Assembly: GCA_949292785.1 (NCBI GenBank)
Contig: CASFBK010000013.1
Coordinates: 22,502-86,501 of the forward strand
From: an uncultured Eubacteriales bacterium
GTDB lineage: Bacteria > Bacillota > Clostridia > Lachnospirales > Lachnospiraceae
Reading direction: 5' to 3'
Length of the DNA: 64,000 nucleotides
Shown here: one piece after another, positions 4,866 to 18,386 of the stretch
Layout of the letters: every line of letters starts with the position of its first letter
Position numbering within the stretch: the stretch's first letter is position 1
Notes under the pieces: model-generated
Seen by the model: the letters and a program-made list of their open reading frames with translations, nothing else
Database searches by the model: none
What the model was told of the DNA's origin: nothing
Translations under genes and position numbers: made by a program

Positions 4866-5379
4866 CTGTAGTTTCCTCCATTCCTTCCATCTCGCTGCTC
4901 ATTACGGTTTCTAATTGCTTCATTAGCTGAAGCAACTGTATCAGATTTTCTTTTCCATATTTTTCAATGACTCTTCCATAATACTCCTTTAAGACCTCTT
5001 CCTGCCGGTCTAACAGATTTTTCCCGGAATCGGTAATTGTAACATAAGTTCCTTCGCTGCCGTTCCCATCATGGGACCACACCACAAGTCCTCTGTCCCG
5101 CAATTTTCCAACCATCTTAGAGGTCTGCCGGATAGAAAGCTGCATTTTATCTGCCAAATCTTTCAGATAAGTTCTTCCGGAATAAATGTCCATAGTTTCA
5201 TCGGTCTCCTGAATATTATGTAGTGCAATATACTCCGAAACACTCAGTTCCTTATAAAAACTACGTACCTGATCCTTATTCATCAAATACCGCCGATAGG
5301 TCAGTTCATTCGAGAGCTTTACAATCTCCGGATTTTCTACTTTTTTATCATGTTCCTGCATTAATGATTTCGATTCCAT
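4846..5379 (-). CDS. MarR-family transcriptional regulator
   Basis: 177 aa. A winged helix lies around residues 55-115 (LADKMQLSIRQTSKMVGKLRDRGLVVWSHD, then GTYVTITDSGKNLL), flanked by helical dimerisation segments. It has a GGAAGG site before ATG 5379. It is the first gene of a two-gene operon with citrate synthase. Tandem near-palindromes 150-180 bp upstream are the obvious autoregulatory sites, and a CIRCE box lies between them and the gene. The effector is unknown. Confidence 0.88.
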   Translation of the reverse strand: MESKSLMQEHDKKVENPEIVKLSNELTYRRYLMNKDQVRSFYKELSVSEYIALHNIQETDETMDIYSGRTYLKDLADKMQLSIRQTSKMVGKLRDRGLVVWSHDGNGSEGTYVTITDSGKNLLDRQEEVLKEYYGRVIEKYGKENLIQLLQLMKQLETVMSSEMEGMEETTDDGTDE

Positions 5380-5455
5380 GCTAAATTACCTTCCTTTCTT
5401 TCTGGATTTCTATGGGAAACAAGCCAGGGAATCATGATATGCATGCCCTTGGCTG

Positions 5456-5482
5456 TTAGCACTCATTTCGTCAGAGTGCTAA
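5456..5482. promoter_or_regulatory. CIRCE element (HrcA operator), perfect
   Basis: TTAGCACTC, 9 nt, GAGTGCTAA: every position matches the CIRCE consensus. It lies 77 nt upstream of the MarR start (minus strand) and 229 nt upstream of the plus-strand BI-1 gene, whose own promoter is further downstream. It therefore most likely sits in the 5' leader of the MarR-citrate synthase mRNA and places that operon under the heat-shock repressor HrcA. Confidence 0.95.
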
Positions 5483-5531
5483 CCTCTTGGTGAAAAAAAT
5501 GCTTCTCTGATAAGAAGCAGACGCTATGTTG

Positions 5532-5560
5532 GTTCACTATTGAACTGTTTACTTTAGAAC
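5532..5560. promoter_or_regulatory. Tandem 14-bp near-palindromes (probable MarR operator)
   Basis: GTTCACTATTGAAC (5532-5545) and GTTTACTTTAGAAC (5547-5560) stand one base apart and fit one pattern, GTTYACTWTWGAAC. The 15-bp period and dyad symmetry resemble a paired operator. The nearest regulator is the MarR gene. A direct read-out only; binding is inferred. Confidence 0.5.
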
Positions 5561-5641
5561 AATTTTATAATAGAAGTATTCTGGCTGTCAAGGGATTTTA
5601 TAGAAATTTAAGATTCTGAATTAAATTTTGTCACATCTGAT

Positions 5642-5670
5642 TTGCCATTTATGCAATAATATGTTAGAAT
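5642..5670 (+). promoter_or_regulatory. SigA-type promoter of the BI-1 gene
   Basis: TTGCCA, 17 nt, TAGAAT, ending 40 nt before the start codon. AAAGGAG precedes ATG 5711. Confidence 0.65.
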
Positions 5671-5710
5671 TTACTTGTAATTTTCAATTTTTTTACGGAA
5701 AGGAGTTCAT

Positions 5711-6454
5711 ATGGAGTATAACAATCAAAACAATTACACTACAAATCCGTCATATGAATATGACAATGAAACCGTTGCCCCAGAGCAGGCACAGAACTTA
5801 AAGGCTCTCTTATGCGAAGAGGTCATTTTCAAATCATTTTTATTTATGGTGGGCGCACTCTTAATTACAGCCTGCGCTGCCCTGACGATTTCCCCTTACA
5901 TAGCAATTCGATTACTGAGCGGCGTTAATTTTTATATCCTCATAGCCGCAGAACTGGGTATCGTCTTTGCTTCTAACTGGGCGTTACGCAAAAATAATAC
6001 GATTTTAGCAGGTGTTCTTTTTACCGCTTATTCCTACTTGACCGGTGTTACACTTTCCATTATTTTTATGGTCTTTACCACGGCTTCTATCGTTGCGATT
6101 TTTGCAACAACTGCCGTTGTATTTGCTATTATGGCAATATATGGAATGGTTACCAAAAAGGATTTATCCAGTATCGGTAATCTCTGCCTTATGGGCTTAA
6201 TCGGAATTATCCTTGTAGGAGTGGTAAACATCTTTTTCTTAAAGAGTACCATGCTCGATACCGCTATCAGTGCAATCGGCGTTTTAATCTTCGTAGGTTT
6301 AACTGCTTATGACACTCAGAAAATCAAAAAAATGGTTGCTGTTTCTAACAATCAGAACGTAAATTCACTGGCTCTTTACGGTGCTTTTGAATTGTATCTT
6401 GATTTTATCAACCTTTTCTTAAAGCTGTTAAACTTGCTGGGCAAGAGAAAATAG
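5711..6454 (+). CDS. Bax inhibitor-1 family membrane protein
   Basis: 247 aa. An N-terminal Asn/Tyr-rich cytosolic tail of about 35 residues is followed by seven hydrophobic segments. Near residues 195-205 is the BI-1 signature GLTAYDTQKIKKM, whose Asp belongs to the pH-sensing pair of this family. BI-1/YccA proteins are pH-sensitive calcium leak channels or FtsH partners. The gene is monocistronic with its own promoter. Its 3' end overlaps by 27 nt the convergent last gene of the sactipeptide cluster, so the two transcripts can collide. Confidence 0.88.
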   Translation: MEYNNQNNYTTNPSYEYDNETVAPEQAQNLKALLCEEVIFKSFLFMVGALLITACAALTISPYIAIRLLSGVNFYILIAAELGIVFASNWALRKNNTILAGVLFTAYSYLTGVTLSIIFMVFTTASIVAIFATTAVVFAIMAIYGMVTKKDLSSIGNLCLMGLIGIILVGVVNIFFLKSTMLDTAISAIGVLIFVGLTAYDTQKIKKMVAVSNNQNVNSLALYGAFELYLDFINLFLKLLNLLGKRK

Positions 6455-7582
6455 TAAGAATACAATGGCAGGCAGCAGGTATTTTCGTGGATGCTTCCAC
6501 AATTCCTGTTTTGTCTGCCATCCGTTTATCCGGTGCTTTTTTTCTAAATATATTCCCAGGAAAACCTCAACCAAAGAAACGAGCAACCATTCTATCACCA
6601 GAAATATAATCTTGGAAATTTCCCATTCTTTAAAAATAATTATTCCTGCCCCCAGAATAATGCTATTTATCATCAGAAAATACACTGCCAGAAAGGCTGT
6701 ATACTGACGGTAAACACTATTCTTTTTTTCCGGAAGCATTGCAACCTGTCTAGTCAGATATACGTCTCCTGACAGCATGGTTAAAAAGGGCGTATTGACT
6801 GCACCGATACTCCAGCTAATACCGAACAGAATGCTGTTTTCTCGGGCAATGACGCACCATAACAAAAGAAAGCAGAGGATACATAAGGTATTTGTCCGAT
6901 AAATCTTTTCTGCCTGCAACACCCGAAAGAAATAATTTGTCGATTTCTTTTCTTTTTTTCGATTTTTCTTTATGTTATGGAAAAGAATCAAGTCCGTTGC
7001 TCTTTGATTTTTCCACAATAAAATTCCCAAGATTCCCACTACAGGAACTTCTAATATCCGCATCCAGTTTGGCTGTTTTAGAACACAAAGAACAGCTACT
7101 ATTCCAAGACAGATAAAATTACATAAAACCTTCCACTTACTTCCTTTATTTTTTGCAAGCAAAATTCCCACATTCAAAAGAACTGTTACAAAAACAACCG
7201 TTATCAAGAGAACAATATGTTCCAACAGCATTACGCCGCTTTCTGCAAACAGCAGAATAACCAGCAAAAAGGAAATTCTCTGTATCATAGTAACAGTGAA
7301 CAATGCAAAAAAATATGCGAAAAGAATCTGATAGCGCCCAATCGGCAAGGTCAGATAAAACCTGATTTTCTCCGCCAGAGAATACGTATAAATGGTATAT
7401 GAGGTAGAGGCAAACGCCACCGTAATTCCAAGCAGTCCAATCCATTCCTGATTCAGAGCAATCAGATTGCCATTCACGCGCAACACCCATATTCCCAATG
7501 CAAATAACACCAAATAAAGAAAATAACGTTTTATTTTTTTCTTTGTAATAAAATCTCTTAAAAATACATTAGTCTGCCACAC
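6428..7582 (-). CDS. ABC transporter permease of the sactipeptide cluster (AlbD-like)
   Basis: About 384 aa using the GTG at 7582, which has GGGAG 9 nt upstream; the frame also contains an ATG at 7651 without a good ribosome site. It is highly hydrophobic, with roughly ten membrane segments, and shows no enzymatic motif. It is the last gene of the cluster and overlaps the 3' end of the ATPase gene. By position and topology it corresponds to AlbD of Bacillus subtilis, which with AlbC is thought to export or give immunity to subtilosin. The assignment to AlbD rests on context, not on close sequence similarity. Confidence 0.75.
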   Translation of the reverse strand: MWQTNVFLRDFITKKKIKRYFLYLVLFALGIWVLRVNGNLIALNQEWIGLLGITVAFASTSYTIYTYSLAEKIRFYLTLPIGRYQILFAYFFALFTVTMIQRISFLLVILLFAESGVMLLEHIVLLITVVFVTVLLNVGILLAKNKGSKWKVLCNFICLGIVAVLCVLKQPNWMRILEVPVVGILGILLWKNQRATDLILFHNIKKNRKKEKKSTNYFFRVLQAEKIYRTNTLCILCFLLLWCVIARENSILFGISWSIGAVNTPFLTMLSGDVYLTRQVAMLPEKKNSVYRQYTAFLAVYFLMINSIILGAGIIIFKEWEISKIIFLVIEWLLVSLVEVFLGIYLEKKHRINGWQTKQELWKHPRKYLLPAIVFLLFSLAQQV

Positions 7583-8267
7583 ATAACCACGCTCCCAGCT
7601 CTTGCCTGATATCCATACCCGGTATAAACTCTTTCCTGATAATTTTTCCATGATTTAACAGTAATATATCATCACAGGTTCTCTCAAAGCTCTCCGCAAT
7701 ATGAGAACTCATCAAGACACTTCCATACTGTTTATGTCCCTGCATTACTTCATACAGGAATTCTGCTCCACTAAAATCCAATCCATCCAGCGGCTCGTCT
7801 AAAATCAGCAAAGGCAGCTGCAGAGCAAATCCGCCAATCAAAAATACCTTTTTCTTGTTTCCCGTAGACAAATCCTTAATCAGGGTATTCTCATACTTTT
7901 GAAAACGAAAGCCCTCTATCAGATAATCAAGATATGTCTGGTCCATCTTCTTTCCATACACCTTTTGAAGGAATTCCATATATTCCCAAAAATCCCAGTA
8001 CGAAAATGCCTGTTCCTCTGTAAATACCGTATAACGCATTTTCTTAAAGTCCTCTGCTGCAAAGCCGGTCGCTCCAGCTTCTCCTAAAATCTTATCTGCT
8101 TGATATTTTGTATGCACTCCGCTGATGGTATTGATTAATGTGGTCTTTCCTGCCCCATTGATGCCAAGCAGTCCCACCACATGATTCGGCTCTATGGTAA
8201 GGTCCGTCCCTTTAATCACATGCTTTTCTTCCTGGTACCAGACAGACAGATTTTTTAACTGCAGCAT
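7569..8267 (-). CDS. albC: ABC transporter ATP-binding protein of the sactipeptide cluster (AlbC-like)
   Basis: 232 aa. Walker A is GINGAGKT (residues 35-42), the signature is LSTGNKKK, and Walker B with D-loop is LLILDEPLDGLD, followed by the H-loop MSSHI. It is a single nucleotide-binding domain that would pair with the downstream permease to export the mature peptide or protect the producer. GAGGAGG precedes the ATG, and the 52-aa microprotein stops only 2 nt before it, as albB precedes albC in B. subtilis. Confidence 0.85.
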   Translation of the reverse strand: MLQLKNLSVWYQEEKHVIKGTDLTIEPNHVVGLLGINGAGKTTLINTISGVHTKYQADKILGEAGATGFAAEDFKKMRYTVFTEEQAFSYWDFWEYMEFLQKVYGKKMDQTYLDYLIEGFRFQKYENTLIKDLSTGNKKKVFLIGGFALQLPLLILDEPLDGLDFSGAEFLYEVMQGHKQYGSVLMSSHIAESFERTCDDILLLNHGKIIRKEFIPGMDIRQELGAWLCVAD

Positions 8268-8269
8268 AA

Positions 8270-8428
8270 CTATTCCTCCTCTGTTCCTTTCATTGCCTTA
8301 TATCCGAATAATGCTCCTATCACCAGGAACAAGGCTCCAAACAAATACTCGTTTTGAAAGAAATAACACACTCCTGAGACTGCAAATACTGCCGCGATAA
8401 TCATTCTTATCATTTTTCGATTCATCAT
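8270..8428 (-). CDS. albB: 52-aa membrane microprotein (AlbB-like)
   Basis: A short gene read directly from the sequence. ATG 8426-8428 overlaps the stop of the preceding membrane gene as TAATG and has AGGAGG upstream; the stop is TAG 8270-8272. The product is a basic N-terminus (MMNRKM), two short hydrophobic helices separated by a QNEY turn, and an acidic end. Size, topology and position just before the ATPase all match AlbB (53 aa) of the subtilosin operon, which takes part in immunity. Confidence that it is translated is good; the AlbB name rests on size and context. Confidence 0.8.
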   Translation of the reverse strand: MMNRKMIRMIIAAVFAVSGVCYFFQNEYLFGALFLVIGALFGYKAMKGTEEE

Positions 8429-9012
8429 TAACCTCCTACCACTTCTGTCACTTTTCTTCTCTGCTCCTGAATTTTACTGATTAGTACCACCATTCCAAGA
8501 TATCCTCCTAGAAAGACTATTTCCATATAATTCATTCCTAATCCAATCAGTGCCCAAAATATCATTTCAACCGCTGCCTGCTTTTTCTTCATGGTCTTTC
8601 GCTTTATAAGATACTGTACTCCTACTGCTCCCAAAATAATGGCGCCATTAAAGAGCGGATTACATTTTGACAGCGCTTGGGGCACCAGAGATAAAAACGG
8701 ATTGTCAAACAACGCATCCATAAGGAAAAACAAAACGGCAAACAAAAAAACCTCCATATTCATCATCTGCAACACCAATGGCATCTTTTCCGGCTTTTTT
8801 TGTATCTCCCTTATCTCCTTTTGAAACAAACTACTAAGCCAGACAGAACACAATGTTACCAAAAAAAAGCAAAGGAGCATGACCTTGTCATATTTCGCAG
8901 CAAATCGGTCTAATCCGGCATTTCCGAAGGTAATTACCAGATATATCACCAACGAAAAGAAAAAGTTAAACGCTACCTGAACATAAAATTTCTTTTTCGA
9001 AAATTTTCTCAC
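8428..9012 (-). CDS. Membrane protein of the sactipeptide cluster (AlbG-like)
   Basis: 194 aa from the GTG at 9012, which has GGGAGGAG 9 nt upstream inside the preceding peptidase gene; the two genes overlap by 47 nt. The longer reading frame back to 9087 overlaps that peptidase further and lacks a site. It has about five hydrophobic segments, a lysine-rich loop after the fourth, and no catalytic motif. In B. subtilis the comparable gene is albG (233 aa, membrane). The role is probably accessory to immunity or export; this is inference from context. Confidence 0.72.
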   Translation of the reverse strand: MRKFSKKKFYVQVAFNFFFSLVIYLVITFGNAGLDRFAAKYDKVMLLCFFLVTLCSVWLSSLFQKEIREIQKKPEKMPLVLQMMNMEVFLFAVLFFLMDALFDNPFLSLVPQALSKCNPLFNGAIILGAVGVQYLIKRKTMKKKQAAVEMIFWALIGLGMNYMEIVFLGGYLGMVVLISKIQEQRRKVTEVVGG

Positions 9013-9946
9013 ACAGCTTCTCCTCCCAGTCTGACTGAAAATAGGTCTTCTCAATATCCGGATTTCCTTCCAGATACCTTGCCACATACGTTACCTCATT
9101 ACACAAATATTTAAAAGACGTCAATAACAAATAATAATGATGATAGGCATTTTCTTTATACCGGTTCACTTCCCGCAAACGACTGATATCTCCCTTCAGC
9201 ACAATTTTTATAACTTCTGATTTATGCACAATCTTTAACGCATAATCTGTTACCATACCACAAAACAGGATTTTCAGGCAGTAGCTTAAGATTTCTCCAT
9301 ATTGGTCCTTTTTCACATGAATTTCCACCTTATTGCTCTCTCGGATTACCGCTTCAAAGCTTACCTTTTCTATCCAGTTTTCCTCAAATGTCATTTTTTC
9401 TAATCGTGCTGCTTCCCCATCCGCTTGTTCCAATTTACCAAAAATAATGGTACTATATTTTCCATCATATTCATCATGAATCTTTTTTGCCCTGTTCAAT
9501 TCAAATTCGCTTATTTCTTCCCGGCTTCCAATCATCTCATTTACTTCTGCTTCGTCTAAACGGCTGCACAAAAGCAGATGCTCCTGAAGAATGGTATTTT
9601 TTTCTATAGAAAGCCCCTCTTCTTTAAATTCTGTTCCAAATATTTCTTCTAAATTTCCACTGTCCAATTCTTCCTGCAGGATTCCATCCTGTAATTCAAT
9701 AAAAATATATTCTGTCATGCTGTCTTTTGTTTCCGCATTAAATTGAATTCCCTGCTTTTCCAGATAGGTAAGGTACTTTTTATTGGACTGCACAATCATA
9801 TGTTCAATCAAATGGGCATATCCGCTCTTTTGAATCAAATCTGCAAATCCCAGCGGGATCAAAAACTTAATGACCACTACGTCCGAATCCATTTGAAATT
9901 GTACCGTACCATCCTTTCGTTTCTGGATGTTTTCTATCATGTCCAT
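8966..9946 (-). CDS. albF: M16-family zinc peptidase of the sactipeptide cluster (AlbF-like)
   Basis: 326 aa. The inverted zinc motif HxxEH is present as HLIEH (residues 45-49), and a Glu-rich EKNTILQEH segment about 70 residues later can supply the third ligand. This is the peptidase M16 pattern seen in AlbF of the subtilosin operon, where AlbE/AlbF are thought to remove the leader and help head-to-tail closure. The protein is shorter than AlbF (about 426 aa). It starts 6 nt after the inactive partner gene, whose stop overlaps its GGGGTGAG ribosome site. Confidence 0.82.
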   Translation of the reverse strand: MDMIENIQKRKDGTVQFQMDSDVVVIKFLIPLGFADLIQKSGYAHLIEHMIVQSNKKYLTYLEKQGIQFNAETKDSMTEYIFIELQDGILQEELDSGNLEEIFGTEFKEEGLSIEKNTILQEHLLLCSRLDEAEVNEMIGSREEISEFELNRAKKIHDEYDGKYSTIIFGKLEQADGEAARLEKMTFEENWIEKVSFEAVIRESNKVEIHVKKDQYGEILSYCLKILFCGMVTDYALKIVHKSEVIKIVLKGDISRLREVNRYKENAYHHYYLLLTSFKYLCNEVTYVARYLEGNPDIEKTYFQSDWEEKLCEKIFEKEILCSGSV

Positions 9947-9952
9947 ATTTTC

Positions 9953-10963
9953 TCACCCCGCTGCGATAACATGCAATTCTCCATTTTTCACCTCAATCAT
10001 ATCTTCCAACGTAATCTCTGATAACTCCTGTACAATCTCATCTAAGGTCAGCATTCTTTTTACCACATAAATATATGGCAATACTGCGAACATTTCTCCA
10101 TATTGAAATGCCACGAACTTTATATCATCTATCACTCTTCTTTTTGCACTGTGAAACAGCTCTTGTGTCATTTTTACATTTTTTGCATAAGAAACAGTTT
10201 CTTCTAAAAGCTCTTGACTGTAATCTGCCATGACCCCGGTCAGAAGCAATTCATGCTCCATCACAAAGGAACTGACTGCTGTATATATCTTTCCTTCACA
10301 CCGCAACGGAAAATAAACGCCGTCTGTTTCGTTGGTACCAAAGACCTTCTCCATAATCTTATAGCATAAAAGCCTTTTTAATTCCCCTGCGGTCCTGGTA
10401 AGATAAAATCCGCCCATAAATGCAAGCTTGTGCTCTTGTACATCAATCTTATTTTCCTTGTCCTGTATTCTTGTGTTTTCTAAGGACTCTTGTGTTTCTT
10501 CCTCAAACTGAATTCCCGGCTGAAAGGAAGTATGCATAACTTCTAAGATTTCCTGCATCTGTTTCTGATAAACCGCTTCCTCTAACAGTTCTTTTTTATC
10601 CCCGGAAAGTACATCAATCATTTTGCGTACAACATCTACATTCTGTGTAAGTCTTTGCAGATAAGTACAATACTCTTTATAATGGGGAATGGAAAAGGTA
10701 TGAATACATTGGAAAAAAATCTGATTTATCTCCTCTGCCTTTAAGGGCATCCCATTCTCTGCCATTACAAAAAGAATTTCACCAAAAAGCTTTTCTGCCT
10801 TTCCTTTCGCATTCCATACACAAATCATATTATGTTTGTAAAACTGAAATTCTACCTTTTCTTTGTTTTTCTGTACAAAAAATTTCAACAAATAGTCATC
10901 AACGCACCCGGTCATTTTACGCGACAGTAATCGTGTATTCACTCTATTTGTCAGGCTGAACAT
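9953..10963 (-). CDS. M16-like peptidase partner without zinc motif (AlbE-like)
   Basis: 336 aa from ATG 10963, with GAGG 8 nt upstream; a TTG six codons earlier is possible. No HxxEH is present. Secondary-structure character and position before the HLIEH protein fit the catalytically silent half of an M16 pair, as AlbE accompanies AlbF. The middle (residues 150-190) is Glu/Lys-rich and probably a linker. It overlaps the end of albA by 20 nt, so it is translated from the same message. The family assignment comes mostly from context. Confidence 0.7.
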   Translation of the reverse strand: MFSLTNRVNTRLLSRKMTGCVDDYLLKFFVQKNKEKVEFQFYKHNMICVWNAKGKAEKLFGEILFVMAENGMPLKAEEINQIFFQCIHTFSIPHYKEYCTYLQRLTQNVDVVRKMIDVLSGDKKELLEEAVYQKQMQEILEVMHTSFQPGIQFEEETQESLENTRIQDKENKIDVQEHKLAFMGGFYLTRTAGELKRLLCYKIMEKVFGTNETDGVYFPLRCEGKIYTAVSSFVMEHELLLTGVMADYSQELLEETVSYAKNVKMTQELFHSAKRRVIDDIKFVAFQYGEMFAVLPYIYVVKRMLTLDEIVQELSEITLEDMIEVKNGELHVIAAG

Positions 10964-12329
10964 CTCTAACACCTCTTTCAAATATTTCTAAAATTTCGTA
11001 CAGATTATTTTTTTCAATCCAGCTGCATACCTTTTCTTTTCCCCGGTTATGAGAAAGTCCTTTAAAATAACAGCCCTTACAGTTTACAAAATGTTCGCAG
11101 TTCTTCGGACATCCATTCTCTTCTGACGGAGGAAGAATCTTAGCTATTTTCTGATAAATATCCTTTTGAAATATTTCCCGAAATTCTTCTTTAAAAATGT
11201 TTCCAAACAGATTTGTTTTTTCAAATAATGCACAGGGGCGCAGATTTCCGTCTGCTCCGACAATAATAGAATTGATGGCAGAACCGCAATTTTCAGAGCC
11301 TAATATTTTATCCTCGCTTCTGGCAATGGGAATCATTTTCTGATACTTTTCTATCACGCCATCTACATACCGGATATAGCTTTCTGCGTCCAGTTCCTCT
11401 TCCACCTTTTCTGATTTCTCTAATAATTTTCCTCTTCCAAAATCTTCAATGAAATTGAACACAAACATATTTGCCCCTAAGGAAATGGCAAGCTCCGCTA
11501 ATTTGTCAATCTCCCACATATTGTCTCTGAAGATGCTGGACGCAATCCGTACCCTTAAGCCTGCTTCTGTCATTCGTTTTACGTTTTTGCACGTGGCTTC
11601 AAATGCACCTTTCATTCCGCGAAACTCATCATGGACGGAGGGCTGTGTACTGTCGATGGATATATTCAGCACAATCTTATCCCGATAGGTTTTCAAAAGC
11701 TTTAATACTTTTTCCGACAACATGGTGCCATTTGTTAAAATAGCTACGGTGGCAAACTGCTTTAGCGCCAGCTCCAAAATCTCATATGCCTGAGGATGAA
11801 CGAATATTTCTCCTCCGGTCAGTTCCAGATTCAGCACATGATTTTTCTTGAAAATATCCACCAGCCATTGAAATTGTTCAAAGGTAATCATGCTGCTTTT
11901 TTCGCAGGATGCTTCCAGATAACAATGTTTACAGCGAAGATTACATTTTTCCGTTACCTCTATGGTTGCTATCATAGGCGAAATCAATGCTCCGTCACCA
12001 ATGACCTTTAATTTTTCCTGTTCCACCGGAGTTTCTGTCAGAACCACTGCATCATTTTCTTTTAACTCCAAAAGAAACTGTTCAATCCATTCTCTGTTAT
12101 CTTCTAACGGGATTCCTGTCTTTTCACAAAACAGTTCCGCTACCTCTTCTACTGTACGATTTCCGGAAATCAGCTTTACAAGCTGCTCTCCTGTTTTATT
12201 TACAGTAAAAAAACGCTGATAACATTCTTCCTCTTTTTTTACCTCTGACATCAGATTATATTTTCCTTTTGTCAGATACATAAAAACGCCTTTGTTCAGG
12301 CTGATATATCTGTTTGCTACCGCTTCCAC
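10944..12329 (-). CDS. albA: Radical SAM/SPASM sactipeptide maturase (AlbA)
   Basis: 461 aa from GTG 12329, with AGGAGG 4-5 nt upstream (ATG 12281 is an alternative). Residues 20-110 resemble the PqqD/RRE-type peptide-recognition domain. The radical SAM cluster is CNLRCKHC (Cys 129, 133, 136), followed by LTGGEIFVHP. The C-terminal SPASM region has Cys in NCGSAI, LRPCALF, NGCPKNC, NCKGC and KVCSW, enough for auxiliary Fe-S clusters. It matches B. subtilis AlbA closely by eye. It forms sulfur-to-alpha-carbon thioethers in the precursor encoded directly upstream. Confidence 0.95.
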   Translation of the reverse strand: MEAVANRYISLNKGVFMYLTKGKYNLMSEVKKEEECYQRFFTVNKTGEQLVKLISGNRTVEEVAELFCEKTGIPLEDNREWIEQFLLELKENDAVVLTETPVEQEKLKVIGDGALISPMIATIEVTEKCNLRCKHCYLEASCEKSSMITFEQFQWLVDIFKKNHVLNLELTGGEIFVHPQAYEILELALKQFATVAILTNGTMLSEKVLKLLKTYRDKIVLNISIDSTQPSVHDEFRGMKGAFEATCKNVKRMTEAGLRVRIASSIFRDNMWEIDKLAELAISLGANMFVFNFIEDFGRGKLLEKSEKVEEELDAESYIRYVDGVIEKYQKMIPIARSEDKILGSENCGSAINSIIVGADGNLRPCALFEKTNLFGNIFKEEFREIFQKDIYQKIAKILPPSEENGCPKNCEHFVNCKGCYFKGLSHNRGKEKVCSWIEKNNLYEILEIFERGVRDVQPDK

Positions 12330-12360
12330 TCTTCTTCCTCCTCACTTCCTTTGGGGAATC

Positions 12361-12397
12361 GGTAACTATTCTGTTGTTTTCTCACAGAATAGTTACC
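12361..12397. promoter_or_regulatory. Intercistronic hairpin between precursor and albA
   Basis: A perfect 14-bp inverted repeat (GGTAACTATTCTGT with its complement, 9-nt loop) lies 65 nt after the precursor stop and 32 nt before albA. There is no following T-run on the minus strand, so it looks like a partial attenuator or mRNA-stabilising processing stem that keeps precursor message in excess over the enzymes. Confidence 0.7.
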
Positions 12398-12461
12398 GCC
12401 TCTATGTACTTCTGTTTTATGTATTATGTTTTTTCGGATTTTTACTTTACAGGTCTCTATT

Positions 12462-12632
12462 TTAGCCTGTCACTCCGAATACTGCGGATACTCCTGCGAT
12501 TTCAAAATCCGGAATTGGTCCGTCTGCCAGACAAAGTGCTCCTACTGCACAAGCAGAACAACCTTTGTTCTCAACGATTTTTGCCTTTTCTACTGCTACT
12601 TCTTCTCTTTCCATTTTCTTCATTTCCATCAT
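12462..12632 (-). CDS. sboA: Subtilosin A-like sactipeptide precursor
   Basis: 56 codons, ATG 12630-12632 (a second ATG follows directly), with AAAGGA upstream and TAA at 12462-12464. The product is a charged 21-residue leader ending in IVE, then a 35-residue core starting NKGC and ending VTG. The core has the same length as subtilosin A, Cys at core positions 4, 7 and 13, Phe at 22 and 31, and the identical segment DGPIPDFEIAG; by my count from memory 23 of 35 residues agree. Expected links are Cys4-Phe31, Cys13-Phe22 and Cys7 to residue 28, which is Ser here and Thr in subtilosin. The core begins with Asn and ends with Gly, as needed for head-to-tail cyclisation. The leader is longer than the 8 residues of SboA. 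Confidence 0.96.
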   Translation of the reverse strand: MMEMKKMEREEVAVEKAKIVENKGCSACAVGALCLADGPIPDFEIAGVSAVFGVTG

Positions 12633-12765
12633 TTTTTTCTTCCTTTCTTATTCACTGATTTTTTGTTTTTAGATACTTTTTTGCTTTTACAAACGTGTTT
12701 CTCTTTTTCCTCACTCCTTTCTTGTTTGTAACCTTATCATACCCTAATTTTCTTTCTGAAAATGC

Positions 12766-12792
12766 AATGTCCTCATTTGGCATGTAAATGTC
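12766..12792. promoter_or_regulatory. Two AATGTC half-sites 21 bp apart upstream of the precursor gene
   Basis: AATGTC occurs at 12766-12771 and 12787-12792, exactly two helical turns apart, the spacing used by LytTR (AgrA-type) regulators. They lie about 135 nt upstream of the precursor start. The core ATGTC is shared with the tandem repeats in the agr intergenic region. A weak, inferential call. Confidence 0.25.
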
Positions 12793-12838
12793 TTTTTCCT
12801 GTATTTTTTCCCTTACTAATACTGCCAGGGCATAGAAC

Positions 12839-12896
12839 AAAGTGTGCCCCGCACACTCTCGCGAATATACATTACCTATCAAGCGGGACACACTTT
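12839..12896. repeat. Inverted repeat downstream of agrC
   Basis: AAAGTGTGCCCCGC at 12839-12852 pairs with GCGGGACACACTTT at 12883-12896 with one mismatch, enclosing 30 nt. It is part of a compound, GC-rich, structured stretch (12839-12963) between agrC and the sactipeptide precursor. The long minus-strand frame across 12652-13056 runs through these repeats and is not a believable gene. Confidence 0.6.
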
Positions 12897-12963
12897 GCCG
12901 CGCCGAGCACAGTCGCTTGCGACATAATTCCACTTGTGCGAGCGCGCATCCTGCACGGAGTGC

Positions 12964-13029
12964 TTTTTGCTCTATAGGAATCAAAATTTTACACTTTAAC
13001 GCAACACGGTATTTCCTATAGAGCAAAAA
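12964..13029. repeat. Interspersed palindromic repeat, copy 1
   Basis: A 66-bp unit with perfect 17-bp arms (TTTTTGCTCTATAGGAA and complement) and a 32-nt loop containing TTTAACGCAACACGGTAT. An almost identical unit lies at 61086-61152 and a diverged one at 46372-46406. All three follow a minus-strand terminator hairpin directly. Confidence 0.85.
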
Positions 13030-13062
13030 AGATATGTAAAAGGTGTTTCCTTTCACATATCT
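13030..13062 (-). terminator. Terminator after agrC
   Basis: A 14-bp stem (AGATATGTGAAAGG against CCTTTTACATATCT on the minus strand, one mismatch), 5-nt loop, then a T-run that is also the arm of the adjacent repeat. It ends the agrA-agrC transcript before the sactipeptide cluster. Confidence 0.85.
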
Positions 13063-13067
13063 CTTCC

Positions 13068-14381
13068 TTACGCAATCAAATTAAAATTTAAGGTAACTAC
13101 AACGGAAAATTTGTTTTCTTCCACATCATACTGTATCACCCCATCATACTTCTTAATGGCTGTTTCCACACTTTTCATTCCCCAGCCATGAAAGGTCTTG
13201 TCCACTTTTGTGGTAATCAGCTTCATATTTTGGAACCTGGGCTTCTCCTCTAATCCGTTTTCAATCTTAAACAGAATCATTTCGTTTATGGTCCTAATTG
13301 TAATTTTTATCCATTTATTGCTTAAATCCTTGTTTTTCTCACATGCCTCGATGGCATTGTCTAACAGATTGCTCAAAATGGTACATACATCATTTTGCAG
13401 AATATCCGTGTTTCCGGGAAATTCCACGTTTACAGATGCTTCAATTTTCTCCTTTTTCATTTTACTTAATTTACTGTTAATCACTACATCTACCACATCA
13501 TTTCCGGTCCAGGTCTTTTTCATGGTCTCCCGTATCGGTTCGCTAATGTTATCCAGATACTGCATTGCCATACTGGCGTCACCACGAATCAGAAATTGAT
13601 AGAGCACATTCATATGATTATTAAAGTCATGATATAGCTTTGCATTGGCGGTATACGCCTGAGTTAGATTCTGGTAATTTTCCTGAAGCAGTTTATTGCG
13701 CATTTCCATAAAATGCAGACTGTCTATTTCATACTTTCGTTTTTGAAACAAAACTGCCACAGTCACAGTCAATGCCATAATCAACCCAAAGGTAATCCAG
13801 TCCACAACAATAGAAAAATGAAATGTTTTTCTTGTATTTTCCGCAAGATAGATAAGTCCTGCCATTCCCGCCAAAATAAGCAGAACATAATGTTTCATCC
13901 GATTACTTTGAAACTTCTCTTTCACAAAATGTTTCAGCAGGAGATAAACTGCTATCAACAATAATTTTGAAATCAGAATCTGCCTTATCCTTTGAAATCC
14001 CATGGTGGTAAGAATCATTTCGGGATAATCGGAATCTTTGAGCAGATATCCCACCAGTGAAATGGAGAGAAAATCCAAATACCCCAGACACATAAAATAG
14101 AAACTGGTAATCAGACACACATACGGGAATCTGCACTGATATAATATCCATATAGAAATAACAATGAATACAATTCCCCCGAAAAAAATAAAATAGGAAA
14201 ACTCTTCGATAAGGTTACATCCATATACCAGCACCGCGATAACAAAAGAAATTCCTACCGTCATCCATTCTGTCTTTTTCTTGTCTCTTCTTGCTTCAAA
14301 TAAAATGCCTGCAACCTTGATACCAATATAGGTTTCAATAAAATTAGCAAATAATTCTGTTAAAAAGATGAAAACACTCAT
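13068..14381 (-). CDS. agrC: AgrC-type sensor histidine kinase
   Basis: 437 aa from ATG 14381, with GAAGGA upstream and a 4-nt ATGA overlap with the response regulator; a TTG five codons earlier is unlikely. About six membrane segments fill the first 200 residues. The cytosolic part has the HPK10-type H-box YHDFNNHMN, an N-box with LSNLLDNAIEAC and a G-box GWGMKSVETAI. It should sense the peptide made from agrD by agrB (plus strand, next door) and phosphorylate the LytTR regulator. Confidence 0.92.
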   Translation of the reverse strand: MSVFIFLTELFANFIETYIGIKVAGILFEARRDKKKTEWMTVGISFVIAVLVYGCNLIEEFSYFIFFGGIVFIVISIWILYQCRFPYVCLITSFYFMCLGYLDFLSISLVGYLLKDSDYPEMILTTMGFQRIRQILISKLLLIAVYLLLKHFVKEKFQSNRMKHYVLLILAGMAGLIYLAENTRKTFHFSIVVDWITFGLIMALTVTVAVLFQKRKYEIDSLHFMEMRNKLLQENYQNLTQAYTANAKLYHDFNNHMNVLYQFLIRGDASMAMQYLDNISEPIRETMKKTWTGNDVVDVVINSKLSKMKKEKIEASVNVEFPGNTDILQNDVCTILSNLLDNAIEACEKNKDLSNKWIKITIRTINEMILFKIENGLEEKPRFQNMKLITTKVDKTFHGWGMKSVETAIKKYDGVIQYDVEENKFSVVVTLNFNLIA

Positions 14382-15094
14382 AATTCCTTCCCCCAATATG
14401 AATTCACAAACTGTTTGGTACTCTGAATATGGGAACGGCTAATAGGAAGAGACTCTCCGTTCTTTAACAATACTTCGCCGTTTTTTACCTGCATAATATG
14501 TATCAAATTCACAATACATCCCCGGTCAATATAAATAAATTCCTCCCGGTCAATTTCTTCAAACACCTGGGACAAGCTTTTCCGCACCTTTGCTACGGAA
14601 TAAAAGGTTATGATTTCGGAATTCTTTCCGTTTTTTTGAATATACAAAATGTCCTTCAGCATAATTTTCTCCAGGCGCGTCTGCGTCTGAATGGTATACA
14701 CTTCCTGCTGTTCTATATTAATATATTGAAAAGCATCCTGCAGCGCCTGCGGAAGCCTTGTCTCTAATTCTTGTTTCGGAATATAGCGAAAGATAGATAG
14801 GGCAAAAGAATCTACCGCATATTTTAAATATGAAGTGACAAAAATAATAAGACAATTCGGCAGAATCTTTCTAATCTTAGGAGCAATCTCCATTCCGTTT
14901 CCATCCGGCATTTCAATATCTAATAGAATTAAATCATAATATCTGCCTTCTTCCACGTCCGCCAGCAGGAAATCTCCATTGGTACATTCCTCAATCTGCG
15001 CCATCATCTTGTGTTCCTGAATATACCGCTCCACAATTACCTTATTGGCAGACAGCAGTATTGGTTCGTCGTCACAAATTGCTATTTTAATCAT
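14378..15094 (-). CDS. agrA: AgrA-type LytTR response regulator
   Basis: 238 aa. The receiver domain starts IAICDDEP and has the phospho-acceptor in LILLDIEMPDGNG (about Asp58); residues 135-235 form a LytTR DNA-binding domain (IMLKDILYIQKNGKNSEI, IDRGCIVNLIHI). It is transcribed together with agrC and divergently from agrBD. The 185-bp intergenic region holds tandem 10-bp repeats that are its probable target. It may also control the sactipeptide genes just downstream of agrC. Confidence 0.93.
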   Translation of the reverse strand: MIKIAICDDEPILLSANKVIVERYIQEHKMMAQIEECTNGDFLLADVEEGRYYDLILLDIEMPDGNGMEIAPKIRKILPNCLIIFVTSYLKYAVDSFALSIFRYIPKQELETRLPQALQDAFQYINIEQQEVYTIQTQTRLEKIMLKDILYIQKNGKNSEIITFYSVAKVRKSLSQVFEEIDREEFIYIDRGCIVNLIHIMQVKNGEVLLKNGESLPISRSHIQSTKQFVNSYWGKEL

Positions 15095-15135
15095 GGTTGT
15101 TCCCCCTTTCCCTTTTTATTCTACCTTAGTTCCCC

Positions 15136-15165
15136 TGTCAAGATATGTCAGGATATGTCAAGAAA
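15136..15165. promoter_or_regulatory. Three tandem 10-bp repeats in the agr intergenic region
   Basis: TGTCAAGATA, TGTCAGGATA and TGTCAAGAAA follow one another without gaps, one per helical turn. On the minus strand each unit reads TTGACA-like, so they also overlap possible -35 hexamers of agrA. The probable binding site of the LytTR regulator. Confidence 0.55.
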
Positions 15166-15232
15166 CAAATTTCAAAATATCATATGCCGCGGACATTTTC
15201 CTGCCATTTGCGGACGAACTAATTCTTTTTCC

Positions 15233-15264
15233 ACTGTTTATGATATATAAATATCATAAACAGT
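15233..15264. promoter_or_regulatory. 32-bp perfect palindrome before agrB
   Basis: ACTGTTTATGATAT, ATAA, and the exact complement of the first arm. It ends 11 nt before the GGAGG of agrB, so in RNA it makes a 14-bp hairpin just upstream of the ribosome site, or in DNA a symmetrical operator. There is no T-run, so it is not a plain terminator. Confidence 0.6.
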
Positions 15265-15279
15265 AGTTTTAAAAAGGAG

Positions 15280-15849
15280 GTGCCTTTTATTTTATTGACA
15301 TTGTCTGAAATGTTCACAGAATATTTTATCAAACGCAACATCATTACGAAGGAGAAAGAGGATATTTTTGTATATGGCTTTCAGCTCATCATTTCTACTT
15401 TATCTTCTATGACAGCCATATTACTTCTTTCCTGCTTTGCCAATCTCACCTATGGCATTCTGTTTCTCTTCTTTTTTATGCCAATTCGCGGGTGTGTTGG
15501 AGGCTATCATGCCAATACTTTCGAAAAATGTTTTTTATATACAAGCCTGTGCTTTCCGGCTACTATGATAATTTCTGCTATTATGCAGCACATGAATCTC
15601 ATGCCGGTTGCTTATCTTTTTTTAATCTTTGGATATCTTATATTAATTTTAAAAGCACCCTGCAGAAATATTCATAACCCTTTAAGCGAAAAAGCCATCG
15701 CTAAGAATAAACTTTATACCAGAATACTTCTTCTGATATACGGCGGGATTCTTCTGATTACTTTTTTTACAAATCCTGCTCTTTCTTTGGTGGGAGCAAA
15801 TACCTTAAATCTTGTTACTTTCTTATTTATCATTGAAAAAAACAATTAA
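15280..15849 (+). CDS. agrB: AgrB accessory peptidase
   Basis: Up to 189 aa. Membrane cysteine protease that cleaves and cyclises the AgrD propeptide. The AgrB motif is intact: IRGCVGGYHANTFEKC, with catalytic His and Cys seven residues apart, as in S. aureus. About five further hydrophobic helices follow. The start is uncertain: AAAAAGGAGG lies at 15271-15280, so the GTG at 15280 overlaps its own site, and TTG 15295 or ATG 15310 may be used. It is followed 16 nt later by agrD. Confidence 0.9.
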   Translation: MPFILLTLSEMFTEYFIKRNIITKEKEDIFVYGFQLIISTLSSMTAILLLSCFANLTYGILFLFFFMPIRGCVGGYHANTFEKCFLYTSLCFPATMIISAIMQHMNLMPVAYLFLIFGYLILILKAPCRNIHNPLSEKAIAKNKLYTRILLLIYGGILLITFFTNPALSLVGANTLNLVTFLFIIEKNN

Positions 15850-15865
15850 AAGGAGTGTGTTTAGA

Positions 15866-15985
15866 ATGAATTTTACTTTAACAGCAATCGCAAACATGGT
15901 AGAAAAAATGGCATTTTTAGGAGCTGGACTGGCATCCTTCTTCGGACTTTATCAGCCGCAGAAGCCGGATTCTTTGAACAGTTAA
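15866..15985 (+). CDS. agrD: AgrD-like autoinducer propeptide with Ser in place of Cys
   Basis: 39 codons with AAAAGGAG before ATG 15866. The N-terminal half is an amphipathic helix (MNFTLTAIANMVEKMAFLG); then GLASFFGLYQPQKPDSLNS. The C-terminal QPQKPDSL piece fits the AgrD tail that AgrB cuts off. The usual ring-forming Cys is replaced by Ser24 in ASFFGLY, so the product would be a lactone, not a thiolactone, as known for S. intermedius. Ring limits (Ser24 to Leu28 or Tyr29) are uncertain. No Cys occurs anywhere in the peptide. Confidence 0.85.
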   Translation: MNFTLTAIANMVEKMAFLGAGLASFFGLYQPQKPDSLNS

Positions 15986-16040
15986 ATCAGAACGATAATA
16001 AAGACCGGATTTTTCAGATACTAATTTATAATTTTAAGCC

Positions 16041-16076
16041 AAAAGCCCGATTCTTAGATACGAATCGGGCTTTTTT
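16041..16076. terminator. Bidirectional terminator between agrD and the retron operon
   Basis: AAAAGCCCGATTC, 8-nt loop, GAATCGGGCTTTTTT. T-runs on both sides serve agrBD on plus and the DUF6602-like gene on minus. Confidence 0.9.
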
Positions 16077-16084
16077 ACGGGCAC

Positions 16085-16990
16085 TTACTTTCTATTTATT
16101 TTTTCATAATCATAAGAAATTGTTCCCCATTCTGCCGTATATCCTTCCTGACAATTATCTGTAAATCCCGGTCTTGATAATTGTTCAAATGTATTCTCAT
16201 AGTATACACTTAAAATATTTTGGAGAATTAATTGGAACCCAAGAGAGCGATTTCCCTTATCATATTCAAAGAAAAAATAACTGGTCTCTTTTTTCTTTGT
16301 AAGCCGTTCCTTATATAACCCCCATTCCGACAAAGAACCTACAAAATCTACCATCTCATCATAATATAAGGGCTTTTTCCCACTATAAAAAGCCTGTAAC
16401 TCTTCAAACGCCTTCTTCCCTTTCTGTTCCAGCGTCAATTTCTTTTTGTTTTGTTCTCCAATCTTATCCTCTAAGGTAATTAGTGCTGTAAAGGGACTTC
16501 TTGCTTTTGTTTTGTTCTCTTTTTTTCCTATTTTATGCGGACATAGAGTGCTTGCCTTTCCAAGCATCTCTATTTCGTGCGTAATATCACTGATACGCAA
16601 ATGTTTTTTTACAGATAAAACAGCAACAACACCTTCCGGCGGCACAATGACACTTTCACCAAACCGCTGATAAATGGGATAGTGTGCCGTGTCATATACA
16701 AGGATATCTAATTGACTGGATATTTCATGTTCATCCTTTTTTCTTGACTTATCGCCACCCCCACAAATTACTGCTGGTCGAAGGATAAAACCGGTCAAAA
16801 CCTCCAAATCTCTCGGCAGATAACGTTTCAAATATTCTCTTATGAGATACTCCACATATCTGCCATCTTCTCCTGCATGTGCTGCCCCTGCATGCGCCTC
16901 AGATGGAAGCAACTGCTGAAACTGCTGGTATGTCTCCAGCAACGCATCCATTTCTCTTGACCAATATCTCTTAATTCGTTCGTCCGCCAT
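16085..16990 (-). CDS. DUF6602-like putative nuclease, last gene of the retron operon
   Basis: 301 aa from ATG 16990, with GGAGG 9 nt upstream; overlaps the RT gene by 20 nt, so it is translated from the same message. Residues 95-145 (EISSQLDILVYD, then PPEGVVAVLSVKKHL) have the layout of DUF6602 proteins, thought to be PD-(D/E)xK nucleases. The position where the family usually has Glu (ExK) appears to be Ser (SVK), so catalysis is doubtful. The C-terminal half is Lys/Tyr-rich with no motif I recognise. A retron-associated effector or regulator is the likely role; the family name is from memory. Confidence 0.6.
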   Translation of the reverse strand: MADERIKRYWSREMDALLETYQQFQQLLPSEAHAGAAHAGEDGRYVEYLIREYLKRYLPRDLEVLTGFILRPAVICGGGDKSRKKDEHEISSQLDILVYDTAHYPIYQRFGESVIVPPEGVVAVLSVKKHLRISDITHEIEMLGKASTLCPHKIGKKENKTKARSPFTALITLEDKIGEQNKKKLTLEQKGKKAFEELQAFYSGKKPLYYDEMVDFVGSLSEWGLYKERLTKKKETSYFFFEYDKGNRSLGFQLILQNILSVYYENTFEQLSRPGFTDNCQEGYTAEWGTISYDYEKINRK

Positions 16991-18152
16991 TTCCACTTTC
17001 CTCCAGTATCCTTGAGAGATAATCCAGTATTTTTTCCATTATCTTTATCTTTTTTTCTATCCGTTTATCATAACCGGTATTTCCATGTTCTGTTCTTACA
17101 AGCTGAATCAAAAAGGAACGATATCCCGCTATGTAATGTACCAAACTGCTGATATCTCGAAAAACAATATCTGTTCCGTCTGATTTTTTCATTTTCTTGG
17201 CATTTATATTTCTTAACACCTGCTTTATATCAATACAATTCTCTTTTAATTGAAACTTGTCCTTTGTATAAGATGTTCTGCTGTCAAACTGATAAATGAC
17301 TTCGTTGATATTACGAAGTTTTTTTCGCGATAAATGCACATCTTCTTTTATTACATATCCGGATAAGGAAATTTCTCTTTGTGTGTAAATTGTCTTACTT
17401 TCATTACAGGCGAATCCCTTTTCTTCAAGAATATGGGAAATCATGCGTTTAAAGTTCTTATTCTTTTTAAAGTCAAATCCCACAGATGAAAAAAGCATAT
17501 CATCCGCATATCTGGTATAAAAAACCTCTCTTCTCATTTCTTTTGCATAGGCTCTGGCATATTTTCGTATTCTCTGATCCAGTCTGGTGAAAATAAGATT
17601 AGAAATTGCCGGAGAGGTGATAAAGCCTTGAGGTACTTTTCCCTGCCATGTACAAAGGTCTGCTATATCCTGTATCATGGATTCTTCTATCTCTTTTGAT
17701 GCTGCCGGCTTCTCTGGTTCTTCTGCCTTCTCTGATAATTCTGTCTTTTCTGACTCTTCTATCATCTCCTGGCGTTCTTCCTGCACATATGGTTTCAAAG
17801 CTTCCAGCAACATATCTGTTGATATAGAATCAAAAAAATTCCTGATATCCAGCCGCAGGAAATACTCATGTCCAACATGTTCTTCCAGAAAATCCACATA
17901 GGAACTTCCCTTTCGAAATCCTTTTGCTGCAGGAGACACCGGAATTTTTGAAAAAAAATTTTTTTGAAGGTTCTTCTGTAATTTCTCTAATACAGTTCCT
18001 GGTTTTATGGGAACAATGGTACGAACGCCCTCTTTTTTGGGAATCTGCACCTCCTCACATAAAGAATTCTTCTGCTCTTTTGCTGTTTGTAATTCACCTT
18101 CACTACACTCCAGTATTTTTTCTAAAAAATACTTTCTTAAATATATCTTCAT
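16971..18152 (-). CDS. Retron-type reverse transcriptase
   Basis: 393 aa from ATG 18152, which has AAAGGAG 5 nt upstream. RT motifs in order: SPAAKGFRKGSS, FLRLDIRNFFDSIS (motif A), VPQGFITSPAISNLIF (motif B) and YTRYADDMLFS (motif C, YADD). Retron-specific sites are present in diverged form: the NAxxH box reads FLEEH and the VTG box reads LSG. A 35-residue Glu/Lys/Ser-rich insertion lies between motifs A and B. It would copy the ncRNA encoded directly upstream (18179-18366) into msDNA. Flanked by an OLD-type ATPase-TOPRIM gene upstream and the DUF6602-like gene downstream. Confidence 0.93.
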   Translation of the reverse strand: MKIYLRKYFLEKILECSEGELQTAKEQKNSLCEEVQIPKKEGVRTIVPIKPGTVLEKLQKNLQKNFFSKIPVSPAAKGFRKGSSYVDFLEEHVGHEYFLRLDIRNFFDSISTDMLLEALKPYVQEERQEMIEESEKTELSEKAEEPEKPAASKEIEESMIQDIADLCTWQGKVPQGFITSPAISNLIFTRLDQRIRKYARAYAKEMRREVFYTRYADDMLFSSVGFDFKKNKNFKRMISHILEEKGFACNESKTIYTQREISLSGYVIKEDVHLSRKKLRNINEVIYQFDSRTSYTKDKFQLKENCIDIKQVLRNINAKKMKKSDGTDIVFRDISSLVHYIAGYRSFLIQLVRTEHGNTGYDKRIEKKIKIMEKILDYLSRILEESGNGGRTN

Positions 18153-18178
18153 ATTACTCCTTTGTAGGTTATATAAAA

Positions 18179-18366
18179 GACAGGCAGGCACTCTCTCAAA
18201 AATTCGTCAGAACGTTAATTGCGTATGGCGAAGCCAATTCTCCTTTTTATCGATTGTACGATAAATTAAATCAACGAGCACTCACACACACCCCGGCTTT
18301 TCAGGTTGTCACCCTCCTCGGGGCTCCGCCTCTTACCGGAAAAGGTCGGATTGCTGCCCACCTGTC
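18179..18366 (-). ncRNA. Probable retron msr-msd RNA
   Basis: The 234-nt gap between the ATPase stop and the RT start is GC-rich and structured. On the minus strand its ends are GACAGGTGGGCA (a1, 18366-18355) and TGCCTGCCTGTC (a2, 18190-18179), which pair over all 12 positions with two G-U wobbles. The base after a1 is G within AGC, the place and context of the branching guanosine in known retrons. Inside are a CCCCG/CGGGG hairpin and a perfect 7-bp TTTATCG/CGATAAA hairpin. a2 ends 26 nt before the RT start, as usual. The msr/msd boundary is not determined. Confidence 0.82.
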
Positions 18367-18386
18367 ATTCATATCATAATAAATTT

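Follow-up and report, generated by a model that had tools for sequence, protein, structure and literature searches.

A subtilosin A-family gene cluster adjoining an Agr-type signalling set in a Lachnospiraceae-like genome

Introduction

Could a member of the Lachnospiraceae make a circular bacteriocin of the subtilosin A type, and would its production be tied to cell density? The question is raised by a stretch of 64,000 nucleotides from contig CASFBK010000013.1 of an uncultured Eubacteriales bacterium (GCA_949292785.1), hereafter the window, in which a sboA-like precursor gene is followed by a series of Alb-like genes and preceded by genes of the Agr type. We consider it probable, from sequence and by analogy with subtilosin A, that this is a subtilosin A-family cluster whose product would be a 35-residue head-to-tail cyclic, bactericidal peptide with three thioether bridges, and that its production would be switched by the Agr system. 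An earlier reading of the same DNA made from its letters alone (the sequence-only reading) had recognized the kind of cluster correctly but had overlooked Ser at residue 28 of the core, the Agr-type set, and a variable region of 27 kb.

Results

Precursor peptide

The 56-residue precursor scored 61.8 bits against the Pfam family Subtilosin_A (PF11420; curated cut-off, 25) and is thus a member of that family. Because a search of the whole genome at E-values up to 10 returned a family match only here (4e-16), the match is far beyond chance; the same search found no second precursor copy. An alignment to the solved subtilosin chain 1PXQ (E 5e-13) pairs residues 22 to 56 with its full length of 35 residues and has no gaps, and the core defined in this way is identical to subtilosin A at 23 of 35 positions, end-to-end. 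Cys4, Cys7, Cys13, Phe22, Phe31, the C-terminal Gly35, and the segment DGPIPDFEIAG are all retained, so the window has the 35-residue core with Cys4/7/13 that marks the subtilosin A chemotype. The sequence-only reading had named the precursor, the core length, the cysteines, the two phenylalanines, and this segment, and all were found as claimed.

The acceptor set is different. Residue 28 of the window core is Ser, whereas the third thioether acceptor in subtilosin A is Thr28; of the set Phe22/Thr28/Phe31, only the phenylalanines are shared, and the window peptide is therefore a variant and not subtilosin A itself. The leader length of about 21 residues is an alignment-based estimate, and the true length may differ, as the leader contains additional ATG codons. 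For the predicted product, the 35-residue chain less six hydrogens and one water, a monoisotopic mass of 3284.53 Da was computed. No record in the plasmid collection matched the precursor.

Radical SAM enzyme

The 461-residue enzyme encoded next to the precursor contains Radical_SAM, PqqD-like, and SPASM domains (Pfam), and with its CxxxCxxC motif, SPASM cysteines, and PqqD-like recognition domain it has the makeup of a radical SAM/SPASM sactisynthase. C129, C133, and C136 of the CxxxCxxC motif and seven C-terminal cysteines were invariant in all nine aligned enzymes from sbo-type loci. The top NCBIfam model was AlbA (330 bits; runner-up, 121 bits). A tree was built from 25 rows, comprising 12 sbo-linked enzymes (the window and 11 of the 16 loci named below) and 13 others; four near-identical Bacillus rows and locus L023 (no enzyme in its DNA) were omitted from the 16, as was one additional row, L008 (too short). 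The window enzyme grouped with that of Anaerocolumna sp. AGMB13025 (locus L019) at 100/99, and this pair grouped with the enzyme of a metagenome-assembled genome (MAG) labeled Corynebacterium at 97/92. A ten-row sbo-linked group that includes Bacillus, Lysinibacillus, and Staphylococcus was recovered at 87/77, with two SkfB rows, identified by TIGR04403 (833 and 824 bits; cut-off, 300), outside it. The 12 sbo-linked enzymes were not strictly one clade, as the long-branch outgroup row L002 fell among the deeper ones, and both the deeper forks and the placement of L002 are unsure. The closest relative is the Anaerocolumna enzyme (52% identical), and identity to the Bacillus spizizenii enzyme is 37%. 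These comparisons place the window enzyme in the AlbA clade of sactisynthases, apart from SkfB, in agreement with the AlbA-type assignment made earlier.

Locus L002 itself, in a genome of the same order, has a short Cys-rich open frame that adjoins an AlbA-related radical SAM enzyme (L002:1178-2754).

Other Alb counterparts and gene order

The Alb-like proteins were compared by hhalign, using two-row profiles (window and Anaerocolumna) against Bacillus/Staphylococcus Alb profiles and two unrelated controls; the Bacillus reference proteins were taken from B. spizizenii and its kin. The probabilities were 100% for AlbA and AlbC, 98% for AlbB, 97% for AlbD, and 70% for AlbF, and the unrelated controls reached at most 2.2% where listed. 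AlbB, AlbC, and AlbD are thus related in sequence to their window counterparts. The AlbF-like protein scored 25.7 bits against the M16 family of Pfam (cut-off, 22.3) and carries HLIEH followed by Glu 72 residues on, both conserved in Anaerocolumna; it therefore shows the M16 domain, HxxEH motif, and downstream Glu of AlbF. AlphaFold gave poor models of the AlbF-like protein (mean pLDDT, 47) and the AlbE-like protein (40), and the top Foldseek match of the low-confidence AlbF-like model was the AlbF homolog 7y8u (E 1.5e-6; TM-score only 0.33), which agrees with the profile result and is not independent proof of it. The protein in the AlbE position had no Pfam family above the cut-off, and a Protein Data Bank sequence search turned up no AlbE chain.

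All seven genes after the precursor, down to position 6428, lie on the minus strand with mostly short overlaps or gaps, in the order sbo-A-E-F-G-B-C-D. The blocks sbo-A-E-F-G and B-C-D are present in both Lachnospiraceae loci (window and Anaerocolumna) in opposite order. The one-strand arrangement with overlaps had been described correctly in the sequence-only reading. Of its two M16-like peptidases, one, the AlbF-like protein, has detectable M16 similarity. In the cluster that it called complete, AlbA, AlbB, AlbC, AlbD, and AlbF have counterparts, the AlbE match is weak, and AlbG is assigned by position only.

Agr-type genes and intergenic elements

The kinase and regulator genes lie immediately upstream of sboA on the same strand, and agrB and agrD are divergent from them. 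With AgrB, AgrD, a GHKL kinase, and a LytTR regulator together, the Agr-type quorum-sensing set is complete by genes, and the gene neighborhood suggests Agr control of sboA. The ring region of AgrD is SFFGL, followed by YQPQKP, with Ser at the usual Cys site (the ring pattern was read partly by eye); Ser likewise replaces Cys in another Anaerocolumna AgrD, one that is unlinked to sbo, which makes a lactone signal plausible. The sbo locus of Anaerocolumna also has a kinase, AgrB (121 bits), AgrD (38.0 bits; Cys-type ring CLMLL), and a regulator similar to that of the window. In both Lachnospiraceae loci, AgrB lies less than 5 kb and the whole Agr set less than about 6.5 kb from sboA. Given two AgrB genes in the window genome and six in the Anaerocolumna genome, simple arithmetic puts the chance of finding one within 5 kb of sboA at approximately 0.5% and 0.9%, respectively. 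AgrB is present genome-wide in 5 of the 16 genomes holding subtilosin-type loci. When the window Agr proteins were searched against the DNA surrounding the 15 loci other than Anaerocolumna, in several cases truncated by a contig end, no AgrB or kinase was found; the Lysinibacillus locus gave one weak match to the window regulator (26 bits). The window kinase is closest to the Anaerocolumna sbo-linked kinase (113 bits versus at most 91 for others). Coinheritance of the Agr set with the cluster was considered and is unsupported for AgrB and the regulator, each of which is closer by bit score to other homologs. The Agr/subtilosin pairing may have arisen twice, which would favor function, or the Agr proteins may diverge fast.

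A terminator-like hairpin, which a consensus terminator scan did not pick up, closes the kinase gene; a separate promoter for sboA, within 12633-12810, is therefore likely. The region between the two genes also contains a copy of a genome-wide repeat. Its 47 BLAST matches count this copy itself, incomplete copies, and some that overlap, and several lie at contig ends. Between the regulator gene and agrB, there are three tandem TGTCARGA repeats, a candidate operator; none of 5000 mononucleotide shuffles held three, for a motif that was picked after it had been seen. No counterpart of these repeats was seen ahead of sboA. An Rfam scan of 5000-21000 found no RNA. A perfect 13-bp inverted repeat, CTGTTTATGATAT...ATATCATAAACAG, was also read by eye just before agrB (15234-15263) and is perhaps an operator.

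Table 1 Features of the subtilosin-type cluster and the adjoining Agr-type set in the window
Feature	Position	Strand	Evidence or note
AlbD-like membrane protein, 407 aa	6428-7651	minus	hhalign AlbD 97%
AlbC-like ABC ATPase, 232 aa	7569-8267	minus	Pfam ABC_tran; hhalign AlbC 100%
AlbB-like membrane microprotein, 52 aa	8270-8428	minus	hhalign AlbB 98%
Membrane protein in AlbG position, 219 aa	8428-9087	minus	position only
AlbF-like M16 zinc peptidase, 326 aa, HLIEH	8966-9946	minus	Pfam M16; hhalign AlbF 70%
AlbE-position protein, 342 aa	9953-10981	minus	hhalign AlbE 22%; 31% identical to Anaerocolumna counterpart
AlbA-clade radical SAM/SPASM enzyme, 461 aa	10944-12329	minus	Pfam, NCBIfam, invariant Cys, tree
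sboA-like precursor gene, 56 aa	12462-12632	minus	PF11420, 1PXQ alignment, core table
Predicted core, residues 22-56	12465-12569	minus	boundary set by alignment
Predicted leader, residues 1-21	12570-12632	minus	boundary set by alignment
Genome-wide intergenic repeat copy between kinase gene and sboA	12810-13035	not assigned	47 BLAST matches in genome
Terminator-like hairpin after kinase gene, 15-bp stem then T run	13029-13063	minus	fold -18.7 kcal/mol, z -7.3
AgrC-type sensor kinase (GHKL), 442 aa	13068-14396	minus	Pfam HATPase_c_5, 83.7 bits
LytTR response regulator, AgrA-type, 238 aa	14378-15094	minus	Pfam Response_reg, LytTR
Three tandem TGTCARGA repeats, 10-bp period	15136-15163	plus	candidate operator
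AgrB-type peptide-processing membrane protein, 189 aa	15280-15849	plus	Pfam AgrB, 105.6 bits (cut-off 23)
AgrD-type signal precursor, 39 aa	15866-15985	plus	NCBIfam TIGR04223, 31.7 bits (cut-off 19)

Relatives and residue 28

Relatives were collected by one scan of genome contigs with two peptide patterns and by profile searches of sampled genomes, which do not make up a census. The pattern scan returned 37 stretches, 16 of which encode a subtilosin-type relative: eight from Bacillus, two from Staphylococcus, one each from Lysinibacillus, Aneurinibacillus, and Anaerocolumna, and MAGs labeled Corynebacterium, Acidobacteria, and Omnitrophota, the last counted by a 12-residue segment only. Six of the Bacillus loci encode the exact subtilosin A core, one has a core with two changes, and the other is from B. 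thermotolerans. Published work describes annotated subtilosin-type precursors in Gemella, Streptococcus, and Enterococcus (PMC5618199), which are absent from the 16 loci of our scan, and Staphylococcus clusters including that of hyicin 4244 (PMC8326336, PMC12300986, PMC12094015). With these and the Anaerocolumna, Lysinibacillus, and other loci, the statement of the sequence-only reading that subtilosin is known from Bacillus is out of date.

Across 17 cores including that of the window, residue 28 is Thr in 10, Ser in 3, Ala in 3, and Val in 1; a second, degenerate B. thermotolerans precursor with Tyr for Cys4 is omitted from this count. Within this set, Thr28 is limited to Bacillus and Staphylococcus. 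The nearest relative, Anaerocolumna, has Ala28, and Ser28 also occurs in Lysinibacillus beside a clear AlbA-clade enzyme. Every one of the 17 cores has Cys7, whether residue 28 is Thr, Ser, Ala, or Val; the search pattern demands Cys7, yet the free alignment shows it too.

Two of the MAG loci have unusual precursors. In the Corynebacterium MAG (L022:10001-12680), whose enzyme is sister to the Lachnospiraceae pair, the precursor has Ala28, Trp31, and, as aligned, a 34-residue core. In the Omnitrophota MAG (L025:9455-11532), the subtilosin-like motif sits toward the C-terminal end of a 213-residue protein that adjoins an AlbA-like enzyme; the N terminus of this protein, with SRRDLL and a hydrophobic stretch, resembles a Tat signal by eye.

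Genomic setting and host

PF11420 was found above the cut-off in 1 of 29 genus genomes, 1 of 397 sampled family genomes, and 1 of 391 sampled class genomes, always the window's own genome; these counts are samples, in which the Anaerocolumna locus did not turn up. One family genome (G298) reached 22.5 bits, below the cut-off, over profile positions 12-26 only. The AlbF-like profile likewise matched 1 of 392 sampled order genomes, again its own. Of the 29 genus genomes, 3 have the Bax1-I gene that borders the cluster on its left in the window (5711-6454). In the other two of these, the right-hand neighbors correspond to genes beyond 33.5 kb in the window, with similarity ending at 6456 or 6462 and resuming at 33525 or 34772. 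At this place, the two relatives therefore lack approximately 27 kb, a stretch that starts with the Alb genes and takes in the Agr set and a retron. To the left of Bax1-I, they also differ from the window, and the neighborhood is therefore variable on both sides; the lineage of the window may have gained the stretch, or the relatives may have lost it. The cluster has a G+C content of 38.2% and the Agr stretch one of 36.2%, versus 42.0% in 20400-64000. The window HflX (TIGR03156) is 64% identical to that of Anaerocolumna and 44 to 49% identical to those of six other named genomes, in keeping with Lachnospiraceae, the family to which the genome had been likened from its letters.

The 27-kb stretch (6457-33450) also encodes a flagellin, a transposase (PDDEXK_2), and a sugar-transport set with a GH36 alpha-galactosidase. 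Adjoining the Agr set, 16085-20399 contains Type I-B retron-like defense genes, with a reverse transcriptase (PADLOC RT_I-B, 281 bits), an ATPase-TOPRIM protein (496 bits), and a DUF6602 protein whose matches to NucC/PD-DExK nucleases are weak (43 and 63 bits).

Discussion

The analysis shows which genes are present and in what order, the families to which they belong, that catalytic residues are conserved, and that an Agr set is there. In the scheme that we propose, AgrB would cut and cyclize AgrD to a small ring peptide, possibly Ser-Phe-Phe-Gly-Leu; at high density, the kinase would sense this peptide and the LytTR regulator would activate the sboA promoter. By analogy with subtilosin A, the AlbA-clade enzyme would link Cys4 to Phe31, Cys7 to Ser28, and Cys13 to Phe22 on the precursor, sulfur to alpha-carbon, a pairing (with Cys7 to residue 28) that we assume to carry over from subtilosin A. 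The AlbE/AlbF-like pair would remove the leader and take part in joining Asn1 to Gly35, and the AlbB/C/D-like proteins would export the product and protect the cell.

Several results weigh against this scheme, some of them touching the enzymes. The window enzyme, at 330 bits, did not reach the 850-bit cut-off of the AlbA equivalog NF012164, although among the four enzymes scored (B. spizizenii, 1068; Staphylococcus caprae, 571; Anaerocolumna, 321 bits) only the Bacillus one passes. The AlbE match of the 9953-10981 protein is weak (22% probability, though the best of nine profiles), and hhalign of the 8428-9087 protein against AlbG gave no match. B. subtilis AlbA is reported not to accept the T28A change (PMC8172795), and the Lachnospiraceae enzymes therefore probably differ in their tolerance at residue 28 or make one bridge fewer. 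The latter would mean that only Cys4-Phe31 and Cys13-Phe22 are formed owing to Ser28, giving a structurally different peptide, which appears improbable to us: the reported lack of modification of T28A and the Ala28 of the nearest relative speak for it, whereas the retention of Cys7 whatever the residue at position 28, and the Ser28 of Lysinibacillus beside its AlbA-clade enzyme, speak for a third bridge. That the cluster is a decayed, nonfunctional relic of horizontal transfer is very hard to credit; it is rare in the family and borders on a region absent at the same place in two relatives, but its eight open frames are intact, most of them overlapping, and the catalytic cysteines and the HxxEH motif are conserved.

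The other adverse results concern the switch. In Bacillus, sbo-alb is controlled by regulators that are its own or general ones, and the window cluster might similarly make a subtilosin-type peptide with sboA under such regulators and the Agr genes as bystanders, which we regard as unlikely though deserving of weight. The hairpin parts the kinase gene from sboA, as does the copy of the genome-wide repeat, which is unrelated. When five promoter regions were scanned for a LytTR consensus, the real DNA did no better than shuffles, and the sboA and agr promoters had no repeat in common. In the two Lachnospiraceae loci, the Agr proteins are for the most part not each other's closest kin: the window AgrB scored 57 bits to the Anaerocolumna sbo-linked AgrB and 65 and 64 to two sbo-unlinked ones, and the window regulator scored 74 bits to the sbo-linked one and 83 to the only other one compared. 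Yet both loci have the Agr set close to sboA in genomes where AgrB is scarce, and independent recruitment of the two sets would mean that the pairing came about twice. A further proposal, toward which we lean less than to its contrary, is that Lachnospiraceae subtilosin-type bacteriocins became Agr-coupled, perhaps twice independently, that AlbA shifted to a Ser/Ala28 acceptor, and that a Ser-lactone ring triggers a thioether-bridged circular killer.

If the Agr system does switch the cluster on, one would expect dense populations of this bacterium to release a killer peptide that is small and very stable. A circular bacteriocin family characterized mainly in Bacillus and Staphylococcus would be extended to anaerobic bacteria whose family is common in animal guts, and the density switch adjoining the cluster would be built in and open to test. 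The natural change at the third acceptor would offer a handle on how AlbA-type enzymes choose the bridged residue.

Comparison with known systems

Among the matches listed, with most subscription journals outside the search, no Lachnospiraceae or Agr-linked subtilosin-type cluster is described. Gut-derived subtilosin A was reported earlier, as cited in PMC4573289, and further literature on the subject is available (PMC4289311, PMC7738495, PMC10931772, PMC10885120, PMC13289728, PMC13239113, PMC9025905).

The window shares with the sbo-alb system of B. subtilis the 35-residue core, Cys4/7/13, Phe22/31, Gly35, an AlbA-clade enzyme, and AlbB/C/D/F counterparts. It differs in Ser28 versus Thr28, in a leader of about 21 versus 8 residues, in gene order (sbo-A-B-C-D-E-F-G in Bacillus), and in the Agr set upstream. 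The S. caprae core is identical to the window core at 26 of 35 positions; the two Staphylococcus loci differ from the window in Thr28, a Ser35 end, and the order sbo-A-B(-C) as far as their DNA reaches, and the window Agr proteins had no match in the surrounding DNA examined. The producer of Ruminococcin C also belongs to the Lachnospiraceae, and its precursor is unrelated to that of the window. Ruminococcin C, from Ruminococcus gnavus, resembles the predicted product as a sactipeptide from a gut anaerobe (PMC6779426) and differs in its two radical SAM enzymes and four thioethers (PMC8188230).

The locus most like that of the window is in Anaerocolumna, with the closest enzyme, the same two gene blocks, and an adjoining Agr set; it is unlike the window in its reversed block order, Ala28, Ser35, and Cys-type AgrD, and its AgrB and regulator are no nearer to those of the window than other homologs are. 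Compared with Agr quorum sensing in staphylococci and clostridia, the window set has the same AgrB, AgrD, GHKL kinase, and LytTR regulator, and it differs in Ser at the ring site and in a bacteriocin cluster as its likely target.

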